Source: an uncultured Gammaproteobacteria bacterium (GTDB lineage Bacteria > Pseudomonadota > Gammaproteobacteria > CAMYKB01). From it: a stretch of 64,000 bases of DNA. Positions 53,344 to 64,000 of the stretch are shown one piece after another (within the stretch, counting starts at the first letter, position 1; each line of letters opens with the position of its first letter). Below the pieces are notes generated by a model. It was given only the letters and a program-made list of their open reading frames with translations, was not told the DNA's origin and ran no database searches. Location of the stretch: NCBI GenBank assembly GCA_947258875.1, contig CAMYKB010000007.1:62001-126000 (forward strand), read 5' to 3'. The translations under genes were made by a program, and so were the position numbers.

Positions 53344-54369
53344 ATGTCATCTATTGCCACATCATTGACGGACACCCTGGGCAGGCCGTTACGTGACCTG
53401 CGGATTTCCGTGACCGACCGCTGCAATTTTCGCTGTAGCTACTGCATGCCCAAGCATATCTTCAATGCAGATCATAAATTCCTGCCACGTTCCGAATTGC
53501 TGACCTTGGAAGAAATTGTGCGGCTCGCTAGACTGTTTGTCTCGCAGGGTGTTAAAAAAATCCGTTTAACCGGCGGTGAGCCCCTGATCCGCAGAAACAT
53601 CGAGTTCCTGGTCGAACAACTCGCATCCCTGCCGGGTCTCGAAGACCTGAGCATGACGACTAATGCCTCATTGCTCAGCAGAGAAAAGGCGCGTGCTCTT
53701 AAGGATGCAGGGTTGCAACGTTTGACCGTCAGCCTGGATGCGCTGGACGACAAAACCTTTAGCGCAATCAACGATGTCAACTTTCCGGTTAGCCAGGTAC
53801 TGGATGGCATCGATAATGCAGAGGCTGCAGGGTTAATGCCCATCAAGGTAAACATGGTAGTGAAACACAGCGTCAATGGTGACAGCATCCTACCCATGGC
53901 GAAGCACTTTCATGGCAGCGGGCATGTTCTACGCTTTATCGAATACATGGATGTCGGCAACAGTAATGGTTGGTGTCATGATGAGGTGATTCCATCCAGT
54001 GAAGTCGTCGAGATGATCAATGCAGAGTTGCCACTTGAAGCAGTTGTTTCCAGTTATCATGGTGAAGTCGCCAATCGTTGGCGTTACAAGGACGGTGGTG
54101 GTGAGATAGGCGTCATCGCTTCGGTCACCCAACCCTTTTGTTCGTCCTGTACTCGCTTGCGCCTGTCAGCCAGGGGCCAACTCTATACCTGTTTATTTGC
54201 TGCACAGGGCCATGATATGCGTCGATTCGTCAGGGACGGTGCGTCCGACGACGATCTTATTAAGACGGTGACTTCGATCTGGTTACAGCGCGAGGATCGT
54301 TATTCAGAAATTCGCACCGAACATACAGTTACAATGCCAAAAGTCGAGATGTCATATATCGGTGGGTGA
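53344..54369 (+). CDS. moaA: GTP 3',8-cyclase
   Basis: MoaA starts molybdenum cofactor synthesis by converting GTP to the cyclic 3',8-cH2GTP intermediate. The 341-residue protein has the radical-SAM cluster at Cys27, Cys31 and Cys34, and the second cluster as FCSSCTRLRLSARGQLYTC. The chain ends in GG, a MoaA feature needed for activity. moaB is convergent, three bases away. Confidence 0.97.
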   Translation: MSSIATSLTDTLGRPLRDLRISVTDRCNFRCSYCMPKHIFNADHKFLPRSELLTLEEIVRLARLFVSQGVKKIRLTGGEPLIRRNIEFLVEQLASLPGLEDLSMTTNASLLSREKARALKDAGLQRLTVSLDALDDKTFSAINDVNFPVSQVLDGIDNAEAAGLMPIKVNMVVKHSVNGDSILPMAKHFHGSGHVLRFIEYMDVGNSNGWCHDEVIPSSEVVEMINAELPLEAVVSSYHGEVANRWRYKDGGGEIGVIASVTQPFCSSCTRLRLSARGQLYTCLFAAQGHDMRRFVRDGASDDDLIKTVTSIWLQREDRYSEIRTEHTVTMPKVEMSYIGG

Positions 54370-54372
54370 TGG

Positions 54373-54894
54373 TTATTTTTCAAGTAAGCGCGGCATTAAT
54401 TCAACAAGATTACAGGGCCGCGTACGGTAGTCGATCTGGTGATTGATGAGTTTATCCCAGGCATCGGCGCAGGCGCCCGATGATCCGGGCAGGCAGAACA
54501 GGTAAGTACCGTTGGCGACACCGGCCAGCGCGCGTGATTGCAGTGTCGAGGTCTTGATGCTGTCGTAAGACAAAGCACGGAACATCTCGCCAAAGCCGTC
54601 AATGATTTTATCCAGTAATGGCATCACTGCCTCGGGTGTGCCGTCACGGCCGGTGATGCCGGTTCCGCCCGTGGTCAATACGACTTGTGCGTCCTGTTCG
54701 ACAATCCAGCGAGAAACGATTGCCCGTATCTGATAAATATCATCTGGAACGATGGCTTTTTCGTAGAGCTTATGACCAGCCTTTTCGAGTCGCTCCACCA
54801 ATAGCTTGCCTGACGTGTCGGTGCTCTCGTCGCGGCTGTCAGAAACCGTTAATACACAGATATTGAGTGGGACCAGTTGTCGTTCGTTACTCAT
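54373..54894 (-). CDS. moaB: Molybdenum cofactor biosynthesis protein B
   Basis: MoaB/MogA-type proteins adenylate molybdopterin before molybdenum insertion; the precise role of MoaB in bacteria that also have MogA is unclear. The 173-residue protein has the family motifs LTVSDSRDESTDTSG and TTGGTGITGRDGTPEA. It lies on the opposite strand to moaA and moaE. Confidence 0.94.
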   Translation of the reverse strand: MSNERQLVPLNICVLTVSDSRDESTDTSGKLLVERLEKAGHKLYEKAIVPDDIYQIRAIVSRWIVEQDAQVVLTTGGTGITGRDGTPEAVMPLLDKIIDGFGEMFRALSYDSIKTSTLQSRALAGVANGTYLFCLPGSSGACADAWDKLINHQIDYRTRPCNLVELMPRLLEK

Positions 54895-54995
54895 TAGTAT
54901 GGATTCTCATATGCCGAAGGCGGTAATTGCGATTATACTTGTTTTTGAGCGTGCGCCAGGCCTGACCGCCGAATAATATACTTGAGCAAAGCAAT

Positions 54996-55433
54996 ATGCA
55001 GATTGATATCCGTCAACAACCCTTCGATCCCTGGCAGGAGGTCGATCGCTATCAACGTGAAGTATTGAATGCGGCGGGCAAGTACGGTGCCACGACAGTA
55101 TTCGTGGGTTCCATGCGCGATTTCAATGAGGGTGATGCGGTAACGCACATGACCCTGGAGCACTATCAGGGCATGACCGAAAAGCATCTGGAAAAAATCG
55201 TTAATGAGGCGCTGCAGCGCTGGGATATTCTGGATGCGCTGATTATGCACCGCGTAGGTGATATCCATCCCAATGACCCCATAGTGCTGGTTGCGGTGTG
55301 GTCGGCGCATCGCAAGGAAGCCTATGAAGCCAACCGCTTTATTATGGAAGACCTGAAATCGAAGGCGCCGTTTTGGAAGAAGGAGGCGCTGGGAGAGGGT
55401 GAACGATGGGTGGCGGAAAATACGAAAGGCTAG
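54996..55433 (+). CDS. moaE: Molybdopterin synthase catalytic subunit
   Basis: MoaE, with the sulfur carrier MoaD, converts cyclic pyranopterin monophosphate to molybdopterin. The 145-residue protein has the signatures FVGSMRDFNEGDAV, HYQGMTEKHLEKI and the C-terminal KSKAPFWKKE with active-site lysines. A moaD gene, normally directly upstream, is missing here and from the window. Confidence 0.95.
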   Translation: MQIDIRQQPFDPWQEVDRYQREVLNAAGKYGATTVFVGSMRDFNEGDAVTHMTLEHYQGMTEKHLEKIVNEALQRWDILDALIMHRVGDIHPNDPIVLVAVWSAHRKEAYEANRFIMEDLKSKAPFWKKEALGEGERWVAENTKG

Positions 55434-55443
55434 GTTGTTCCGC

Positions 55444-55501
55444 TTCGCGGGATATTTAAGCGTTTAAGCGGGTATTCGCACCCGCATAAATATCTCGCGA
55501 A
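55444..55501. repeat. Long nested palindrome downstream of moaE
   Basis: Outer arms TTCGCGGGATATTTA and TAAATATCTCGCGAA pair with one mismatch, and an inner stem GCGGGT/ACCCGC encloses ATTCGC. The core GCGGGTATTCGCACCCGC is close to the GTGGGTATTCGCACCCAC cores of the repeats at 7137 and 8017. It may serve as the moaE terminator, although no T tract follows. Confidence 0.7.
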
Positions 55502-55565
55502 ACGATTCAAAATTGGGGATCTCCAAGGAAAAGTAGTGTTTTAGCAGGCGTGCACAAGGCGCTTG

Positions 55566-55994
55566 CTAGAGTTTCAATGCAAGATCTTTAGTGTCGTTGC
55601 TAATATCATTTCTACCAAGAGCTTTTCACATTGATACAGCGGTATTTTTTAGTGAATCAATATCGGGATTCAAGATAAAGTAGTGCAGATTTACCAATGT
55701 TGCTGTTGATGCAAAAAGCAGCATATTATGCCATTCGGCCTTAAGTTCATCTATACCTCATCTTGGTTTTTTAGATCAGGCCGATTGATCCGCATAGATG
55801 TTTTGTTTGTTTCGAAACCATATGCTGCATACATTAGAGGAATTATTATAACGCTTTTCTAAATCCTCGCGCTGGCTTTGAAAAGAAGACTCTTTACGCT
55901 TTAAAGTGTATTGAATCAATGCAGTTAAAACCGAGCCAATGCCAAGTTTAGAAAGTAGTCCGGTCACTAGCGTGATCCAGTTAATTGTATCCAT
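55566..55994 (-). pseudogene. Degraded small membrane-anchored protein gene
   Basis: The start MDTINWITLVTGLLSKLG is followed by a membrane segment and a charged helix ending EKRY. The first frame stops after 74 codons. A continuing coding pattern is visible in other frames: LMYAAYGFETNKTSMR, then DELKAEWHNMLLFASTATL and LHYFILNPDIDSL, then KALGRNDISNDTKDLALKL up to a TAG. Two frameshifts and at least one in-frame TGA interrupt it. The family is unknown. The DNA is more AT-rich than its neighbours, so it may have been acquired and then lost. Confidence 0.6.
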
Positions 55995-56039
55995 AATCAC
56001 CTTTTAAATAATCCTAGTATGAGTGGCGCACAAAATTAT

Positions 56040-57308
56040 TTAAACAAATGCTTCAAACGGAATTACCTCAACCAGATCCCCTGGTTCTGCGCCCATCGAT
56101 TCCATCGGTAAAACAATAAAACAATTCGCTTCGCTCATTGAGCGCAGGATGCCGGAGCCTTGTGCGCCGGTTGTGCTTACGCTGTGTTCGCCGTTGCTAT
56201 CTACGCTAAGGACGGCGCGCTGGTATTCAGTGCGGCCGGGGCGTTTTTTTAGTTTATTGGTGGCGGGGACCTTGAGGTTTAAATAGGGCCTGGGTGCTTC
56301 GCCCATGAGTCGTCTCAAGGCAGGTTGCACGAACAGGTAGAAGGTGGCCATGACGGATACAGGGTTGCCGGGCAGGCCGAAAAAAACGGCATCCTGCAGG
56401 CGGCCGAAGGCCAGTGGACGGCCGGGTTTCATGGCGACTTTCCAGAAGTTGATCTCACCGAGTTTTTCCAGCGTTTCTTTAACATAGTCGGCGTCACCCA
56501 CCGACACTCCGCCAGAGGTGATGACAACGTCGGCATCGCTGGAAGCTTGTGTAAAGGCGTCGATGAGTGAATCGCGATCATCTCGAATCACACCCATGTC
56601 GATGATCTCCACACCGAGACGCGTCAGCATGGCGTGTAAGGTGTAACGATTGCTGTCATAGATCATTCCAGTTTCAAGCGGTTCGCCAATGGAGCGTAGT
56701 TCGTCACCGGTCGAAAAAAATGCGACCCGCAAGCGTCGTTTGACGAGAGCTTCACCGATACCCAACGACGCCAGCAGGCCAATATCAGCTGGCCGCAGGC
56801 GTTTGCCGGTCTTTAATACGCAGGCGCCTTTGCCGATGTCCTCTCCGGCCTGGCGTACGTTTTGCCCCTTACGGTTGCGATCATCGATACGGATCATGTC
56901 GCCGTCGATCTCGACATGTTCCTGCATCACTACGGTGTCGGTGCCCGGTGGCATGGCAGCGCCGGTCATAATGCGTACGCATTCGCCTTTTGCGGTGGGC
57001 TGGGTGAAGGGTTTGCCCGCCCAGGAGGTGCCTATGAGTCTGAGATCATGCGTAGCCTCGATAGGCAGGTCGCTGCTGCGTACGGCGTAGCCGTCCATAG
57101 CGGAATTGGTGTGGCCGGGCACGTTGATGCTGGAATACACATCGCTGGCCAGTATGCGCTCGAGCGCGCTGCGGATTGCGATTTTCTCGAAGCCGGATAC
57201 CGCTTGCAGGCTGGAAGTGATACGTGTGACGGCATCGTCTGGCGACAGGGAATTCGGGTCGTAGTCGTCCATGCAACTTGCGGCGTCGTTGATGGTGTTT
57301 TTACTCAT
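56040..57308 (-). CDS. moeA: Molybdopterin molybdenumtransferase
   Basis: MoeA inserts molybdate into adenylated molybdopterin. The 422-residue protein has the MoeA domains in order, with DGYAVRSSDLP near the start, TGAAMPPGTDTVVMQE, the MoeA/MogA core ITSGGVSVGDADYVKE, and GLPGNPVSVMATFYLFV. It completes the local set with moaA, moaB and moaE, and is divergent from apbE. Confidence 0.96.
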   Translation of the reverse strand: MSKNTINDAASCMDDYDPNSLSPDDAVTRITSSLQAVSGFEKIAIRSALERILASDVYSSINVPGHTNSAMDGYAVRSSDLPIEATHDLRLIGTSWAGKPFTQPTAKGECVRIMTGAAMPPGTDTVVMQEHVEIDGDMIRIDDRNRKGQNVRQAGEDIGKGACVLKTGKRLRPADIGLLASLGIGEALVKRRLRVAFFSTGDELRSIGEPLETGMIYDSNRYTLHAMLTRLGVEIIDMGVIRDDRDSLIDAFTQASSDADVVITSGGVSVGDADYVKETLEKLGEINFWKVAMKPGRPLAFGRLQDAVFFGLPGNPVSVMATFYLFVQPALRRLMGEAPRPYLNLKVPATNKLKKRPGRTEYQRAVLSVDSNGEHSVSTTGAQGSGILRSMSEANCFIVLPMESMGAEPGDLVEVIPFEAFV

Positions 57309-57467: not shown

Positions 57468-58490
57468 ATGACTCTTAAATTGCAAAGATTGTATACAGGC
57501 GCGCTGCTCTTGATCTATCTCTTGTGCAGCGCTCAGGTACAGGCGGACTGGGCGCGCGCCGAGGCTGCGATCATGGGCACCGAGATCCGTGCCGAGGTTT
57601 GGCATGAGGATGCCGCATTGGCGCAAAAAGGCGTTGTTGCGGTCATGGACGAGATGCGCAGAATCGATAGGTTAATGAGTCCCTACAAACCTCAGAGCGA
57701 ATTGTCGCAGATCAATCGGTATGCGGCTGATGAACCCGTTGTTGTGAGCACCGAATTATATGCATTGATAAAACGTTCGATGGAGTTTTCAGTGCTCACG
57801 GGCGGCGCATTTGATATTACCTTTGCCAGTGTCGGCCATCTATATGACTACCGGGAACATCGGAAGCCGGATCAGCAGCAGATAGAGGAAAAATTATCCG
57901 CGATTAATTACCGGCATGTCGAGCTTAATGACAAAGATAGGTATGTACGATTCGCCAGACGAGGTGTCAAAATCGATCTGGGTGGTATTGCCAAAGGTCA
58001 TGCTGTCGATAACGCGCTACAGATCCTGCGGGACCTGGGTATTGAGCATGCCCTGGTTACTGCAGGCGGTGATACTGGCTTGCTCGGGGATCGTCTGGGA
58101 CGGCCCTGGATGGTTGGAATCAAACATCCACGCAAGTCAGGTGCAATGGCCGCCATGCTGCCGTTGCAGGATGAAGCACTTTCAACCTCGGGTGATTATG
58201 AGCGCTTTTTCGAAGAAGACGGTGTTCGTTATCACCATATACTCAATCCGAGTACCGGCAAATCGGTAGGCGAGGTGACCAGTGTGTCCATTCTCGGGCC
58301 GGATGCCACAACCGCGGATGCATTATCGACCAGCGTCTTTGTGCTGGGTGTAGAGCAGGGGATGGCATTGGTTAACCGACTTGCTGGGATCGAGGCCATT
58401 ATCGTGGATAAGGAGCGCCGGCTCTTCTATTCCTTAGGCCTGGAAAAACCGTCGCGCCCGAGTGCCGAGACGAATACCTGGATGAAGTGA
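57468..58490 (+). CDS. apbE: FAD:protein FMN transferase
   Basis: ApbE covalently attaches FMN from FAD to serine or threonine of exported or periplasmic target proteins. After the ATG giving MTLKLQRLYTG the product has a signal peptide ending near AQVQA, the opening IMGTEIRAEVW, ITFASVGHLYD, GIAKGHAVDNAL, VTAGGDTGLLG, STSGDYERFFEE and HHILNPSTGK, all ApbE family motifs. Earlier in-frame ATGs (57393, 57375) would add about 25-31 residues in front of the signal peptide; the start is uncertain. No Nqr or Rnf genes are in view, so the flavinylated partner probably lies in the gene set that follows. Confidence 0.93.
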   Translation: MTLKLQRLYTGALLLIYLLCSAQVQADWARAEAAIMGTEIRAEVWHEDAALAQKGVVAVMDEMRRIDRLMSPYKPQSELSQINRYAADEPVVVSTELYALIKRSMEFSVLTGGAFDITFASVGHLYDYREHRKPDQQQIEEKLSAINYRHVELNDKDRYVRFARRGVKIDLGGIAKGHAVDNALQILRDLGIEHALVTAGGDTGLLGDRLGRPWMVGIKHPRKSGAMAAMLPLQDEALSTSGDYERFFEEDGVRYHHILNPSTGKSVGEVTSVSILGPDATTADALSTSVFVLGVEQGMALVNRLAGIEAIIVDKERRLFYSLGLEKPSRPSAETNTWMK

Positions 58491-58761
58491 GAAAGTAATA
58501 ACCGCAATCTTGGACTCTTAATCCCAAAATTTGGTGGCCCGATTTCCCTGGTCGACCACTTGTCCCTAAAAATGACCCGCCGATCGGCTATGCCTGTGCA
58601 GCAGCACGACCGCGATTACAATCCCAAGTATAAAAAATGTTCGTTTGTGATCATGTTCACGGTGTCCGCGTAGCTATGATCTGAACAATAGACAACAATT
58701 TATAATAACTTTTCACAGCCGTAAGTCTGTATCCCCAATCACGGCCAACTGGAGCAATACG

Positions 58762-61641
58762 ATGCGAGTCAATGCGTTATTTTTGGTGTGTGTGTTGGTG
58801 TCTTACCTGGCCGGCTGCGATAGCAGTACCTCACCTGCAGAGAATACGGTACTAAACGGGGATTTTCCGGTTGTTTATGTGCAACGGCAATTCGAGGCGG
58901 TAGGCAATCCGACCGATGGTATAACGTTTGCACCGGGTGGCGACCTGATGTTCAAAGAGTTGGCGTCAGCGACTTCTGACCCGGTAAACCTCACTGCGAG
59001 CTATACGCAGGGGCAGGGTGATGTCTCTGACCCTGAGGTTTCATTTGATGCCAAGAAAATCCTGTTCTCGATGCGAACACCTACGACGGGAGACACTTGG
59101 AATATTTATGAGTATGACATCGAGACCGAGACACTGGCACGTGTTATTCAGGATGACGTTATCGCTAACGAAGGTAATGATGTTGATCCGTCCTACCTGC
59201 CGGATGGTCGTATTATGTTTTCCTCAAACCGTCAGGAGAAAACCAAGACATTAATGGGGCAAGAAGGTATCGCACCCTACACTTATATTGACGAGTATGA
59301 GCGTGAAGGAACTATTGCCTTACATATACTTAATCGTAACGCTGCCGATCCAGCTGATCTGATTAAGCAGGTCTCGTTCAACCAAAGTCACGATCGCAAC
59401 CCGACAGTATTGAAGTCGGGTGAAGTGATGTTTGCTCGCTGGGACCATGTTGCAAACCGCAACCACTTTCCGATTTTTTTCACCAACCCTGATGGTACCA
59501 ACCTGTTTGTCCAATACGGTGCGTTCAGTCCGGGCAATAGTTTCCTGCATCCGCGTGAAATGCAGGATGGTCGTGTGATTGCGTCACTGATGCCGCTTTC
59601 AGGTACTGACGAGGGTGGCGCACTGGTGACCATCGATATCCAGAATTACTCGGATAATAATGATCCGGCTCCGGGTGTTGCCGCAGGTGGCTCTGGTCAG
59701 GAGGTTATGCAGTTTACAAATCTGGCAGTCAGTTTTGGGCGTGATTTTTCCGAGGGTGGGCGTTATGCGACACCATATCCATTGTGGGATGGGACCAATC
59801 GTGTGTTGGCGGCCTTCAAGCCGGCGCCTCCCAATCCTGTTGAGATTACCAACCCGATCACTGGTGAAGTGACGCTGGATGAGGGTGAGCCGGCTTATAA
59901 AATCTATATGGTCGATCTGGAAACTAAATCACAACGGCCGATTCAGACCACTCCCGAGGACATGGCGCTGTTGGATCCGGTAGCGGTTATCCCGCGCGAT
60001 CCCGCCGATCTTCCAAATATTATTAGTGATAAGGCCCTGGATACCACCTTGGCCACAAAGACTAATACCCTGGGTTCTACCGGTGTGGGTGTGCTTAATG
60101 TGAAAAGTGTCTACGACACAGATGGCCTGGGCATTATGGGTGACCGTGTGTTGGCCGCCGGTGAGGTCATACCCAAGACGTCCGCTGGTCAACCTGACCT
60201 GATGAAAATGAAAGACCCCGTATATCCAGAATTTGCACAGCGTGTGGGCCGCTTCGTGCGTGTCACCCGTGCTGTACCGACACCTCGTGGAATCATGATG
60301 GATGCGATTAGCGAAAACGATTTCGAGATGCAGGAAATCGTTGGATATGCACCGCTTGAACCGGATGGTTCGATCAATATCGAAGTGCCGGCCGATACAC
60401 CCCTCACATTGGCAGTGTTGGACGAACAAGGTCGCGCCTTTCAAACGCATACCAACTGGCTACAAGTGCGTCCCGGTGAAACGCGCACCTGTAACGGTTG
60501 TCATTCGCCGCGTCGGGCTGAAGAGCCGCTCAATACGCCGCCGATCTCCGGTAATCATCCCAATACACTGTTTACAGCAGGTATCGGTGAATCAATGGCT
60601 GAGACGCGTGCACGCGTCGCAGCAAGCCCGCAGAATCTAACAACTGATATCGTGTTTAGCGATGTATGGACAGATCCGACCGTCGCCAGTCCGCAGGCGG
60701 ACATTGTCATCGACTACGCGGGATTAACGACAGCTGCGCCAGCAGAAGGGCGTATCAATTACGCAGAGCAGATACAACCCTTGTGGGAGGCGTCCCGTAC
60801 GGGCGGTGCCTGTGTCAGTTGTCACAACAACAATGACCCGGATGATCTAGTGTCTGTCGGTCTTGATTTGAGCGGTATGATTTCGGGTTCAGGTCGTTTG
60901 GTATCTTACGACGAGTTGCTGATCGGTGATCCCTTATTGGATGCCAACGGCAGTCCGCTACCGCCGAGGATTGATGAAGACGGTGAAGTGATCATCCAGC
61001 GTGGTCCGGCCTTGGTCGAGGTGGGGAGTTCAGGACAAAGCTCGCGTACCAGCCACCTGATTGAAACCATCTTTAACGATAAATTACGTGCTGATGCTAG
61101 CCAGGTACTCGGCACCCCAGATCACAGTGGCATGCTGAATGCTTCCGAGAAACGGCTGGTGACCGAGTGGATCGATGTTGGTGGGCAGTATATCAATGAT
61201 CCCTATGAGGCGGTTGCCGGGTCTGGTGGCCGCGAGATCCGCACCGATCTCCAGATCGCTGGCCTGGATGAGGATGTATTCAACCAGTCTGTACATCCGG
61301 TCTTGATGAATCGTTGCGCAAGTTGTCACCAGGCATTTGGTAATTCGGGCGACTTTGTGAACGTATCCAGCAGTTTTGTTGGTAATAATCGTTTTGTACT
61401 GACAGGAAATCCGCCAGGAGACTTTAATGTTACAGCGGGTATGGTGAATGATGTCTGTGACCCGGCTAACAGCGATCTGTTGTTACGGCCAGTTTCAACC
61501 GAGACTGATACGCCACCACACCCGCAGGTTGCCGCTAGCCCTGGTGACCCGCTAGCACCTGTTTTGTCAGTGGCTGATGCGGATTATCAGACGATTTTAA
61601 GCTGGGTTCAGGCGGCAGCAACTGCAAACAGCTGCCCTTGA
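58762..61641 (+). CDS. Triheme lipoprotein resembling hydrazine synthase alpha subunit (HzsA-like)
   Basis: The 959-residue product has a lipobox cysteine at residue 19 (SYLAGC). Residues about 60-420 contain TolB/WD40-like strand repeats such as LPDGRIMFSSNR and EMQDGRVIASLM. A segment from about 520 (GYAPLEPDGSINIEVPAD) leads into the first haem motif CNGCH (Cys577) after PGETRT. This is the pattern I associate with the middle domain of the hydrazine synthase alpha-subunit family. Two further CxxCH sites follow, CVSCH (Cys684) and CASCH (Cys852). I infer a c-type cytochrome anchored in the envelope. It is not evidence of anammox: relatives occur in many bacteria with no known role. It is probably co-transcribed with the next genes. 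Confidence 0.75.
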   Translation: MRVNALFLVCVLVSYLAGCDSSTSPAENTVLNGDFPVVYVQRQFEAVGNPTDGITFAPGGDLMFKELASATSDPVNLTASYTQGQGDVSDPEVSFDAKKILFSMRTPTTGDTWNIYEYDIETETLARVIQDDVIANEGNDVDPSYLPDGRIMFSSNRQEKTKTLMGQEGIAPYTYIDEYEREGTIALHILNRNAADPADLIKQVSFNQSHDRNPTVLKSGEVMFARWDHVANRNHFPIFFTNPDGTNLFVQYGAFSPGNSFLHPREMQDGRVIASLMPLSGTDEGGALVTIDIQNYSDNNDPAPGVAAGGSGQEVMQFTNLAVSFGRDFSEGGRYATPYPLWDGTNRVLAAFKPAPPNPVEITNPITGEVTLDEGEPAYKIYMVDLETKSQRPIQTTPEDMALLDPVAVIPRDPADLPNIISDKALDTTLATKTNTLGSTGVGVLNVKSVYDTDGLGIMGDRVLAAGEVIPKTSAGQPDLMKMKDPVYPEFAQRVGRFVRVTRAVPTPRGIMMDAISENDFEMQEIVGYAPLEPDGSINIEVPADTPLTLAVLDEQGRAFQTHTNWLQVRPGETRTCNGCHSPRRAEEPLNTPPISGNHPNTLFTAGIGESMAETRARVAASPQNLTTDIVFSDVWTDPTVASPQADIVIDYAGLTTAAPAEGRINYAEQIQPLWEASRTGGACVSCHNNNDPDDLVSVGLDLSGMISGSGRLVSYDELLIGDPLLDANGSPLPPRIDEDGEVIIQRGPALVEVGSSGQSSRTSHLIETIFNDKLRADASQVLGTPDHSGMLNASEKRLVTEWIDVGGQYINDPYEAVAGSGGREIRTDLQIAGLDEDVFNQSVHPVLMNRCASCHQAFGNSGDFVNVSSSFVGNNRFVLTGNPPGDFNVTAGMVNDVCDPANSDLLLRPVSTETDTPPHPQVAASPGDPLAPVLSVADADYQTILSWVQAAATANSCP

Positions 61642-61672
61642 TTTTCTAGACCGGAAAACTTAGGGGTTTCTT

Positions 61673-62176
61673 TTGAAGTATAAAGACTTAACGCTGCTAT
61701 TAACGGCAGTGGTGGCGTTGCTAAGTGCGTGCGATAACGTATCGGTCGAGGATACCCCCGATACGGCAGCCGCCACACTGTGTTATGCCGATTACCAGAC
61801 CTGTGTTGACCCTATCCTGCAGGCGGTTGTCAGTAATGTCACTTGCTCCGCTAGTGCCTGCCATGCTTTAGGCGGTAATGGTGGCGGGTTCAAGATTAAT
61901 CAGAACCCGGCAACTGATGCTGAGTTTATGGTCAACTTCTTCGCTGCAAAGGCATTTGCAAATCTGACTACTCCCACTCAAAGTAAGCTCTTGCTGGAAC
62001 CCTTGCAAGGCAGTTTCGGCATCACGGGTTCGCATGGTGGGGGTAGTATATTTCCCAATACATCTGATCCGTGCTATCAAACAATTTTGACATGGATTAG
62101 TAAGCAGGTCGGAGCGGATGACAGTCCAAGCTGTGGGGTTTGCACACCGATAAACGTGAGCGCATGTGGCTTCTAA
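61673..62176 (+). CDS. Small lipoprotein with CX4CH motif
   Basis: The TTG start has AGGGG upstream, and gives a 167-residue lipoprotein with lipobox ALLSAC (Cys20). Cys58-Cys63-His64 (CSASACH) is a CX4CH motif, the spacing used for haem attachment in some multihaem cytochromes c. It lies in a sequence that aligns loosely with the CASCH region of the preceding protein (both followed by a gapped hydrophobic stretch and a TILTWI/TILSWV tail). A C-terminal CGVC and final cysteine are also present. It lies 31 bp after the large lipoprotein gene. Haem binding is inferred. Confidence 0.6.
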   Translation: MKYKDLTLLLTAVVALLSACDNVSVEDTPDTAAATLCYADYQTCVDPILQAVVSNVTCSASACHALGGNGGGFKINQNPATDAEFMVNFFAAKAFANLTTPTQSKLLLEPLQGSFGITGSHGGGSIFPNTSDPCYQTILTWISKQVGADDSPSCGVCTPINVSACGF

Positions 62177-62210
62177 GTGCCGCAGTTGAATAATATGAAA
62201 TTGAGGCGAC

Positions 62211-62957
62211 ATGATACGTATTTTTCTGGTCTTAATGTTATTAATCAGCCAAGGCTTGGTTGCATCGATTGTCGCCGCAGAAGAAACATATCAAAAAGTA
62301 CAGGTTGTTGATCCTTATATTGAGCTACACACCGGCCCGGGCAGGGGTTATCCGGTTTTTCATGTTTATGAGCGTGGCGAATGGATTGAAGTAATTAAAC
62401 GCAAAACCGATTGGTTTCAAGTCCGCGGTGATAATGGTAAGGATGGCTGGGTAACACGCGTACAGCTGGAGCAGACATTGACTGAGGCGGGGATTGCGCC
62501 CGGCTTTCGAGATATCGCAGTTAGTGATTTTCTGGAACGCAGGTTGGAGTTTGGTTTTGCGGGCGGTGAATTCGAGAACGATCCGGTGGTGACTGCGCGT
62601 GCTGGTTATCATATTTCGGAGAATCTGATGTTGGAATTGTCTGTTGCCGATGTCGCAGGTAGCTTTTCCAGCTCTTCGCTGTATCACATCAATCTGGTAT
62701 CGATGCCATTTCCGGATTGGCGCCTTACGCCATTCTTTACTATTGGTGTTGGGAGGTTTGAGAATATTCCCAAGGCGACTTTGATTGATGCTATCGAGAT
62801 CGATGCAACGGCAGCAAACGCTGGACTTGGTGTGCGTTACTACATAACACGGCGTTTTATCGCGCGCCTGGATTTCAAGAATTATGTAGTACTCAAGAAT
62901 GATATTGAGAATGAAGAATTTCAGGAATGGGTGGCGGGGTTGTCATTCTTTTTTTAG
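62211..62957 (+). CDS. SH3-domain protein with C-terminal outer-membrane beta-barrel-like region
   Basis: The 248-residue product has a signal peptide, an SH3-like domain (about 25-85: LHTGPGRGYPVFHVYERGEW, WFQVRGDNGKDGWV), and a C-terminal half of alternating hydrophobic strands ending in AGLSFFF, where the terminal phenylalanine is typical of outer-membrane barrels. The SH3 part may bind peptidoglycan. The barrel region resembles that of the next gene, so the two are related. Confidence 0.7.
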   Translation: MIRIFLVLMLLISQGLVASIVAAEETYQKVQVVDPYIELHTGPGRGYPVFHVYERGEWIEVIKRKTDWFQVRGDNGKDGWVTRVQLEQTLTEAGIAPGFRDIAVSDFLERRLEFGFAGGEFENDPVVTARAGYHISENLMLELSVADVAGSFSSSSLYHINLVSMPFPDWRLTPFFTIGVGRFENIPKATLIDAIEIDATAANAGLGVRYYITRRFIARLDFKNYVVLKNDIENEEFQEWVAGLSFFF

Positions 62958-62975
62958 CGAATTAAAGGGTTTTCG

Positions 62976-63614
62976 ATGTTCACTAAATCATTGATATTAA
63001 TATTGGGTCTGGCGTTGTTTATGCCGGCGCTTGCAGCAGAAACGCCGGAGCCAGCCCCTGCCGGCGAGCAAGTGATTGAACCCGAACTGGATCGACGCAA
63101 AATTATTGTGCCAAAAATCGATACCGAAGATTTTGAAGTTAATGTATATGCCGGCTTGGTGAGTTTCGAGGATTTTGGTACCAAGCCTGTCTACGGTGCG
63201 CGCATCGCGTTTCACGTAACGGAGGATTTTTTCCTGGAAGCAGCATTTGGGCTCTCGGAAATTTCTGATACCTCATTTCGTGATCTGGGTTTGGCGTTAT
63301 TCCCAAATGAAGACGAGGATGTCACTTATTACAATTTATCGTTGGGTTTTAATCCTTTCCCAGGTGAGATTTTTATTGGTGGGAATCGGGCGATGAGCAG
63401 CACGTTGTACCTAATAGGTGGGGTGGGTAATATCGAATTTATCGACGAAGATGAGTTTGAGTATCATTTTGGTTTTGGTATGCGCGTTATGCCCAAGGAT
63501 TGGTTAACGATACGGCTCGAGCTGCGTGATTACATTTTTGAAACCGATCTTTTGGGCGAAAATAAATTTACAAATAATCTGGAAACGACACTCAGTGTTG
63601 GTATTTTTTTCTAA
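62976..63614 (+). CDS. Outer-membrane beta-barrel protein
   Basis: The 212-residue product has a signal peptide (cleavage near ALAAET), a short proline-rich segment, then about eight amphipathic strands (FEVNVYAGLVSFEDFGTKPV, GARIAFHVTEDFFLEAAF) and a terminal SVGIFF. It belongs to the small outer-membrane beta-barrel type often placed beside SH3-domain and thioredoxin genes. It lies 18 bp after the SH3 gene and 16 bp before the TlpA-like gene, so the genes form one transcript. Confidence 0.75.
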   Translation: MFTKSLILILGLALFMPALAAETPEPAPAGEQVIEPELDRRKIIVPKIDTEDFEVNVYAGLVSFEDFGTKPVYGARIAFHVTEDFFLEAAFGLSEISDTSFRDLGLALFPNEDEDVTYYNLSLGFNPFPGEIFIGGNRAMSSTLYLIGGVGNIEFIDEDEFEYHFGFGMRVMPKDWLTIRLELRDYIFETDLLGENKFTNNLETTLSVGIFF

Positions 63615-63630
63615 CTAAGGGATGCTCGAT

Positions 63631-64000
63631 ATGATCAGGCAATACAGAAACGGAATCTTGCTCGCGATATTTGTGACCCTCATGGTATCTGCGAGTAATG
63701 TCTATTCGCGAACAAGTGACCTTCAAGGCAAGGCGGCACCTAATTTTACTCTCAAGAGTGAAGCCGGTGTCAACATGAAGCTGAGTGAATACCGAGGGCA
63801 GGTTGTTATGCTAAATTTCTGGGCGACCTGGTGTGGTCCCTGTCGCCAGGAAATGCCGCACCTAAACGAGCTCAGTAGTAAGTACGAGAGACTGGGTTTT
63901 ACCTTGATGGGTATTAATATTGACGAAGATCCGCAGCGCGCCAACAACATGGTCGATAAGCTGCTTGTCGGTTATCCGGTGTTGTATGACCAGTCAAAAG
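63631..64000 (+). CDS. TlpA/ResA-like thioredoxin (partial, runs off the window)
   Basis: The first 123 codons are visible. A signal peptide (LLAIFVTLMVSASNVYS) is followed by a peroxiredoxin-like opening GKAAPNFTLKSEAG and the redox motif FWATWCGPCRQEMPHL, Cys68 and Cys71. The TlpA/ResA group reduces disulfides in the envelope, often for cytochrome c maturation, which fits the haem-motif proteins upstream. The start was taken nine bases after an in-frame ATG that lies too close to AAGG. The C-terminus is beyond the window. Confidence 0.88.
   Translation, partial: MIRQYRNGILLAIFVTLMVSASNVYSRTSDLQGKAAPNFTLKSEAGVNMKLSEYRGQVVMLNFWATWCGPCRQEMPHLNELSSKYERLGFTLMGINIDEDPQRANNMVDKLLVGYPVLYDQSK

Follow-up and report, generated by a model that had tools for sequence, protein, structure and literature searches.

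A conserved gammaproteobacterial gene set joining an HzsA-like cytochrome, a candidate flavin barrel and an Agl/Glt-like motor module

Gene content of the locus

The window analysed here, a stretch of 64,000 nucleotides, corresponds to bases 62001-126000 of the 144-kb contig C7, in a genome of 3.0 Mb. An earlier note on this DNA, made from the sequence only, had placed six ORFs of the plus strand at its end, and ORF positions and family searches bear out all of them. The first (57468..58490) encodes ApbE, an exported FAD:protein FMN transferase (PF02424, 8.6e-85). It is followed by a 959-aa HzsA-like lipoprotein with three CXXCH motifs and the lipobox LAGC (58762..61641; PF18582, 2.7e-19), by a mono-haem-type lipoprotein with a CX4CH motif (61673..62176), and by a protein in which an SH3 domain is joined to an outer-membrane barrel (62211..62957; PF08239, PF13505; TIGR04565 below cut-off). 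Then come another outer-membrane barrel, OMP_myx_plus (62976..63614; TIGR04565, 2.9e-43, 147.6 bits for a cut-off of 60), and a TlpA/ResA-like thioredoxin (63622..64000; PF08534, 1.6e-31 for the whole gene), which is cut by the window's end and terminates 146 bases beyond it.

The gap between apbE and the HzsA-like gene measures 271 bp, exactly as the earlier note had it, and the next gaps are 31, 34, 18 and 7 bp. Because of this 271-bp gap, apbE is possibly separate from the rest of the set. Promoter and terminator scans found nothing in the gap; in these scans promoter-like sites were fewer than in shuffles and terminator-like sites slightly more. No RNA family was detected in the region at E 0.5. 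Directly upstream of apbE (window 53344-57308), translations read by eye look like those of moaA, mog/moaB, moaE and moeA; we imply no functional link between these molybdopterin-cofactor-like genes and the set.

The earlier note had proposed to look beyond position 64000 for DUF4266, DUF3570 or a flavinylation motif. All three are present there (PF14086, PF12094, DSISGAS), and the genes past this point are related ones. Their coordinates are given on an extended stretch, L002 (window position = L002 position + 56999). The complete TlpA gene (L002:6623-7147; PF08534) is followed on the same strand by a 77-aa DUF4266 lipoprotein, ending GGGCGCN and thus with a CXC (L002:7157-7390; PF14086, 4.7e-22), and by DUF3570 (L002:7407-8522; PF12094, 4.5e-41). 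The likely start of the latter is L002:7407, the listed ORF beginning too early, within DUF4266 and in another frame. Still on the same strand lie a conserved protein named X220 (L002:8545-9123, start chosen by eye), three TPR proteins of 635, 935 and 196 aa (L002:9171-11078, L002:11075-13882 and L002:13863-14453), a 90-aa protein named X90 (L002:14464-14736), an ExbB/TolQ-type channel (L002:14826-15482), two ExbD-type proteins (L002:15479-15970 and L002:15986-16489), a TonB-like protein with an AgmX/PglI C-terminal domain (L002:16496-17449), and a GspC/PDZ-like protein (L002:17454-18104). A TetR-like gene comes after the set (L002:18266-18961). The whole set thus spans L002:469-18104, from window position 57468 to 11 kb beyond the window's end, all on one strand. 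Between the HzsA-like and PDZ genes, neighbours overlap or are separated by 7 to 47 bp, except for 89 bp before ExbB.

Conservation of the set and co-inheritance of its two modules

The gene order HzsA-like-[CX4CH]-SH3/barrel-barrel-TlpA-DUF4266-DUF3570-X220-TPR-TPR-TPR-X90-ExbB-ExbD-ExbD-AgmX is common to many families. Since it recurs in more than 20 of their genomes, the arrangement is not due to chance. The neighbourhood is therefore not unique to this strain, which the earlier note had listed among its refuting conditions. The redox genes form only one half of the conserved set, and come first in it; the other half, out of sight for the earlier note, is an Agl/Glt-like ExbB/ExbD/TonB/TPR machine. 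Of 56 relative genomes, 8 (including the one from which the window comes) encode a relative of the HzsA-like protein, as do three named gammaproteobacterial MAGs, and the neighbourhoods of these genes follow the same order.

We then took X220 as the marker of the motor module in a class-wide sample of 274 genomes, with a threshold of E below 1e-40 for HzsA-like proteins. HzsA-like proteins were present in 38 genomes, from 26 families, and X220 in 59. X220 occurred in 37 of the 38 genomes with an HzsA-like protein, versus 22 of the 236 others (Fisher 3.5e-29, a value that ignores shared ancestry). The sole exception has a fragmentary HzsA-like gene (G034:C1:1998599-2000236; L029, L030). A second sample of 399 genomes was largely separate, 2 of its 11 HzsA-like genomes being also in the first one. 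X220 was present in 14 of its genomes: all 11 with an HzsA-like protein and 3 of the 388 others, counts that are not corrected for ancestry. At forty further X220 loci the redox and motor modules lay next to each other in most cases and in some were divergent or on separate contigs, and the two are co-inherited even where they lie apart. Motor modules devoid of the redox module also exist, alone among housekeeping genes.

Two forms of the locus can be distinguished. Next to the long, three-haem HzsA-like form lies the gene for the CX4CH lipoprotein, which is absent from loci with the short, two-haem form. Most short-form loci have a divergent operon (L015:3874-9545 and relatives), largely without family assignment, that encodes a mono-haem protein weakly similar to PSD2, a LamG multi-haem lipoprotein and a Tat-exported protein. 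The mono-haem protein, taken as marker of this operon, was found in 32 of the 274 genomes, 30 of which also have the HzsA-like gene; it was not found in the window's genome.

Likeness of the proteins to known systems

The HzsA-like protein is made of a propeller, an HZS-alpha middle domain, a haem domain and an extra C-terminal third haem domain, with CXXCH motifs at residues 577, 684 and 852. The earlier note had proposed to search it against the hydrazine synthase alpha middle-domain family, and the match is clear (PF18582, 70 bits for a cut-off of 26.6). A profile of ten relatives matches 5c2v_A, the hydrazine synthase alpha subunit from Kuenenia (4e-20), collinearly over its whole length. 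The same entry is the best solved-structure match of the predicted model (Foldseek, 1e-31), TolB being second; this model is of middling confidence (pLDDT 66.8) and does not resolve the third haem domain. The protein thus belongs to the HZS_alpha fold superfamily by both PF18582 and whole-length fold, yet it has other partners. With this, all three refuting conditions listed in the earlier note have turned out in favour of its reading. Its score with the hydrazine synthase alpha equivalog NF052339 is 64.5 bits for a cut-off of 800. In hydrazine synthase, haem alpha-I has as ligand Tyr591, four residues past the CXXCH histidine (PMC12607021). The equivalent residue is an arginine in the window protein and a tyrosine in none of 30 relatives. 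The hydrazine synthase beta and gamma families (hzsB/hzsC) were not matched among the adjacent proteins searched. Because Tyr591 is absent and the equivalog score falls well short of its cut-off, we conclude that the protein is a homologue of hydrazine synthase alpha and not a hydrazine synthase, and on the same two grounds hydrazine synthesis was rejected as its role. Besides lacking this ligand, it differs from 5C2V in being a lipoprotein, in its third haem domain and in its different partners, the propeller, middle domain, C-terminal haem domain and whole-length fold being alike. A 2025 study reported more than 600 structural matches to the HZS alpha subunit, and none of the top ones has another experimentally confirmed function (PMC12758564). 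Among the plasmid records searched, the only HZS-alpha-like matches were distant and in Bacteroidota (NZ_AP025307.1, NZ_OY725748.1), most of them annotated as SUMF1/EgtB/PvdO family.

The third haem domain of the HzsA-like protein has a homologue in the CX4CH lipoprotein (hhalign E 4.9e-7). This lipoprotein has no match in Pfam/NCBIfam, and it is kept in the relatives aligned. Judging from their motifs, both proteins would be loaded with haem in this organism.

The flavin and thiol genes resemble a system already described. Clusters of ApbE, DUF3570, a thioredoxin-like protein and DUF4266 are known, some of them with DsbD; in Chlorobium, DUF3570 is flavinylated by ApbE at [ST]GA[ST] sites (Meheust et al. 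2021, PMC8238504, where the part played by DUF3570-based electron transfer is called uncertain). The set shares with these canonical clusters TlpA, a CXC-bearing DUF4266, a motif-bearing DUF3570 and ApbE, clustered as in a DUF3570 flavinylation system, and DsbD is encoded in the window's genome. In relatives, ApbE is found at the equivalent place or beside DUF3570. The set differs from canonical clusters by the HzsA-like cytochrome, by two extra barrels and by the motor beside DUF3570. In 20 canonical DUF3570 loci we found TlpA, DUF3570, nearly always DUF4266 and usually ApbE, but neither an HzsA-like protein nor the extra barrels nor the motor. Since the motor was present in 0 of these 20 loci, we rejected the possibility that it accompanies ordinary DUF3570 clusters as well. 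In a tree, the window-type DUF3570 forms a branch apart from the canonical one (100/99 support). ExbB, TlpA and hydrazine go unmentioned in the main text of PMC8238504.

The motif of ApbE flavinylation is D-x-x-[ST]-G-A-[ST] (PMC12052999), and DUF3570 of the window locus has it exactly and once, as DSISGAS at residues 65-71. Its predicted model (pLDDT 91.3) has the form of a 16-strand barrel and matches porins and exporters of the outer membrane; the motif straddles the end of strand 3 and the loop that follows. In known barrels with an even number of strands, both ends face the periplasm. If both ends do so here too, the motif loop and the other long loops would point outward, and by this topology the flavin site is probably in a surface-exposed loop. 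DUF3570 is presumably flavinylated in this organism. Among 29 window-type DUF3570 proteins, all 26 with DUF4266 in the locus retain the D, A and S/T of the motif, and the 3 for which no DUF4266 was detected there have lost them. In two genomes of one family that lost both DUF4266 and motif, G056 and G192, TlpA is also missing from the locus; the longer of these loci, that of G056, retains HzsA-like, CX4CH, barrel and several motor-module genes. ApbE copies are found elsewhere in genomes whose loci lost DUF4266 and the motif. In G017 (L042:13641-14942), the DUF3570 ORF starts with an apparent degenerate DUF4266 devoid of CXC, and the flavin motif is lost. Many DUF3570 relatives have SSAS in place of SGAS, which makes their flavinylation less sure.

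The ExbB, two ExbD, TonB-like and TPR genes would encode a probable proton-powered, envelope-spanning machine, which by gene composition resembles the one behind Myxococcus gliding. The Agl/Glt core complex (Luciano et al. 2011, PMC3169522) likewise has an ExbB and two ExbD, an AgmX/PglI-type TonB-like protein, three TPR proteins and extra conserved genes, gathered in a single gammaproteobacterial cluster; this comparison is one of composition. In that study this core complex is termed Group B; its genes (gltC, D, E, G, aglR, Q, S and an extra gene) were found clustered in gammaproteobacteria, and its function there was called unknown. Our locus has this core composition in one cluster, with the AgmX/PglI C-terminal domain above cut-off (NF033768), although the Glt equivalogs GltE, GltG and GltJ scored 32, 24 and 22 bits for cut-offs of 225, 650 and 450. 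The set differs from the Agl/Glt core in having haem, flavin and thiol proteins joined on, and 'cytochrome' and 'ApbE' are absent from the main text of PMC3169522. It also differs in one ExbD: of the two ExbD-type proteins (both within L002:15479-16489), the second keeps the membrane Asp, while the first has Asn in nearly all loci. Since one ExbD has Asn in place of this Asp, ion coupling may rest on the other.

A possible envelope-spanning redox device

Gene content, gene order, co-inheritance, predicted folds and the presence of flavin and haem motifs are the observations that an explanation has to accommodate. Our preferred explanation, which we hold tentatively and at somewhat less than even odds, is that the whole set, from apbE to the PDZ gene, encodes one envelope-spanning device, made of a motor and a redox module. 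It is favoured by the contiguous same-strand run, the kept order, the co-inheritance, the confidently predicted 16-strand barrel with its exact motif, the loss of this motif together with DUF4266, the flavinylation of DUF3570 in Chlorobium and the presence of DsbD. Against it stand the motor-only modules, the modules split in some genomes, the SSAS variant, the first ExbD without Asp and the 271-bp gap.

At the base of such a device, a proton-driven ExbB/ExbD motor, a TonB-like arm and periplasmic TPR proteins would be built like the Agl/Glt core complex, and would reach an outer-membrane assembly of the two small barrels, into which the redox module would be plugged. ApbE would put FMN on the DxxSGAS serine of the DUF3570 barrel prior to its insertion. 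TlpA, fed by DsbD, would keep the CXC of DUF4266 reduced, and so the flavin would be fed. The HzsA-like cytochrome and its CX4CH partner would link the flavin barrel to an extracellular substrate by carrying electrons between the two. As in the earlier note, the electron path across the envelope is one that we infer: DsbD to TlpA, DUF4266, FMN on DUF3570, the HzsA-like and CX4CH cytochromes and the outside substrate, or the reverse. The motor may power the assembly, opening or movement of the part at the surface. The direction of electron flow, the substrate, the surface exposure and the physical coupling to the motor are likewise what we infer.

The main rival is a motor-driven device handling a surface polymer, most likely a polysaccharide, which the haem and flavin proteins would oxidise or reduce. 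We give it roughly one chance in five. It draws on the divergent operon of the short-HzsA relatives, with its LamG/concanavalin-like multi-haem lipoprotein and weakly PSD2-like haem protein, on matches of the DUF3570 model to various barrels, the polysaccharide exporters PelB and AlgE included, and on the Agl-Nfs machine of Myxococcus, which moves spore-surface carbohydrate in a similar way (PMC3858216). However, the window's genome does not have the mono-haem protein that marks the LamG operon, the porin matches are generic to barrels, and the set contains no glycan gene. A little less probable still is that two independent systems, an outer-membrane electron conduit that works by itself and a core complex without relation to it, are simply neighbours. 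Motor-only clusters among housekeeping genes and split modules would fit with this, but the genomes in which both modules are co-inherited (37 of 38 and 11 of 11) include split ones, and those motor modules whose X220 scores are highest accompany a redox module.

Two readings restricted to the redox genes appear unlikely. TlpA and DUF4266 might only keep haem-binding cysteines reduced, as an envelope thiol and cytochrome-maturation unit with the flavin as a side branch; the TlpA/ResA family membership and the many haem motifs of the set point that way. Such a unit is hard to reconcile with TlpA-DUF4266-DUF3570-ApbE clusters that exist without any of the cytochromes, or with one locus that lacks TlpA and still has HzsA-like and CX4CH genes, and we consider it improbable. 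A nitrogen-cycle enzyme, in which the HzsA-like protein would make or consume hydrazine or hydroxylamine, is suggested by the HZS-alpha fold and middle domain; with the equivalog score, the missing catalytic-haem ligand and the beta and gamma families unmatched among the neighbouring proteins searched all speaking against it, we regard it as very improbable.

Beyond this locus, we propose, with slightly less assurance than for the single device itself, that an Agl/Glt-like core complex is the motor of a surface redox machine in many gammaproteobacteria, where it would position or gate the flavin barrel and the HzsA-like cytochromes. The pieces are known as families, and their combination seems new with respect to the open-licence papers searched, none of which joins the DUF3570/DUF4266 families with a motor. 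If an outer-membrane barrel does carry a covalent flavin on its outer face, this would be an unusual location for the cofactor. Our results suggest that redox chemistry at the cell surface may be a task of such envelope machines in bacteria for which gliding is not known. The set joins three unknowns, the core complex, the HZS-alpha-like proteins and the role of DUF3570, so that each becomes testable through the others, and any cultured gammaproteobacterium carrying the set would allow such tests.
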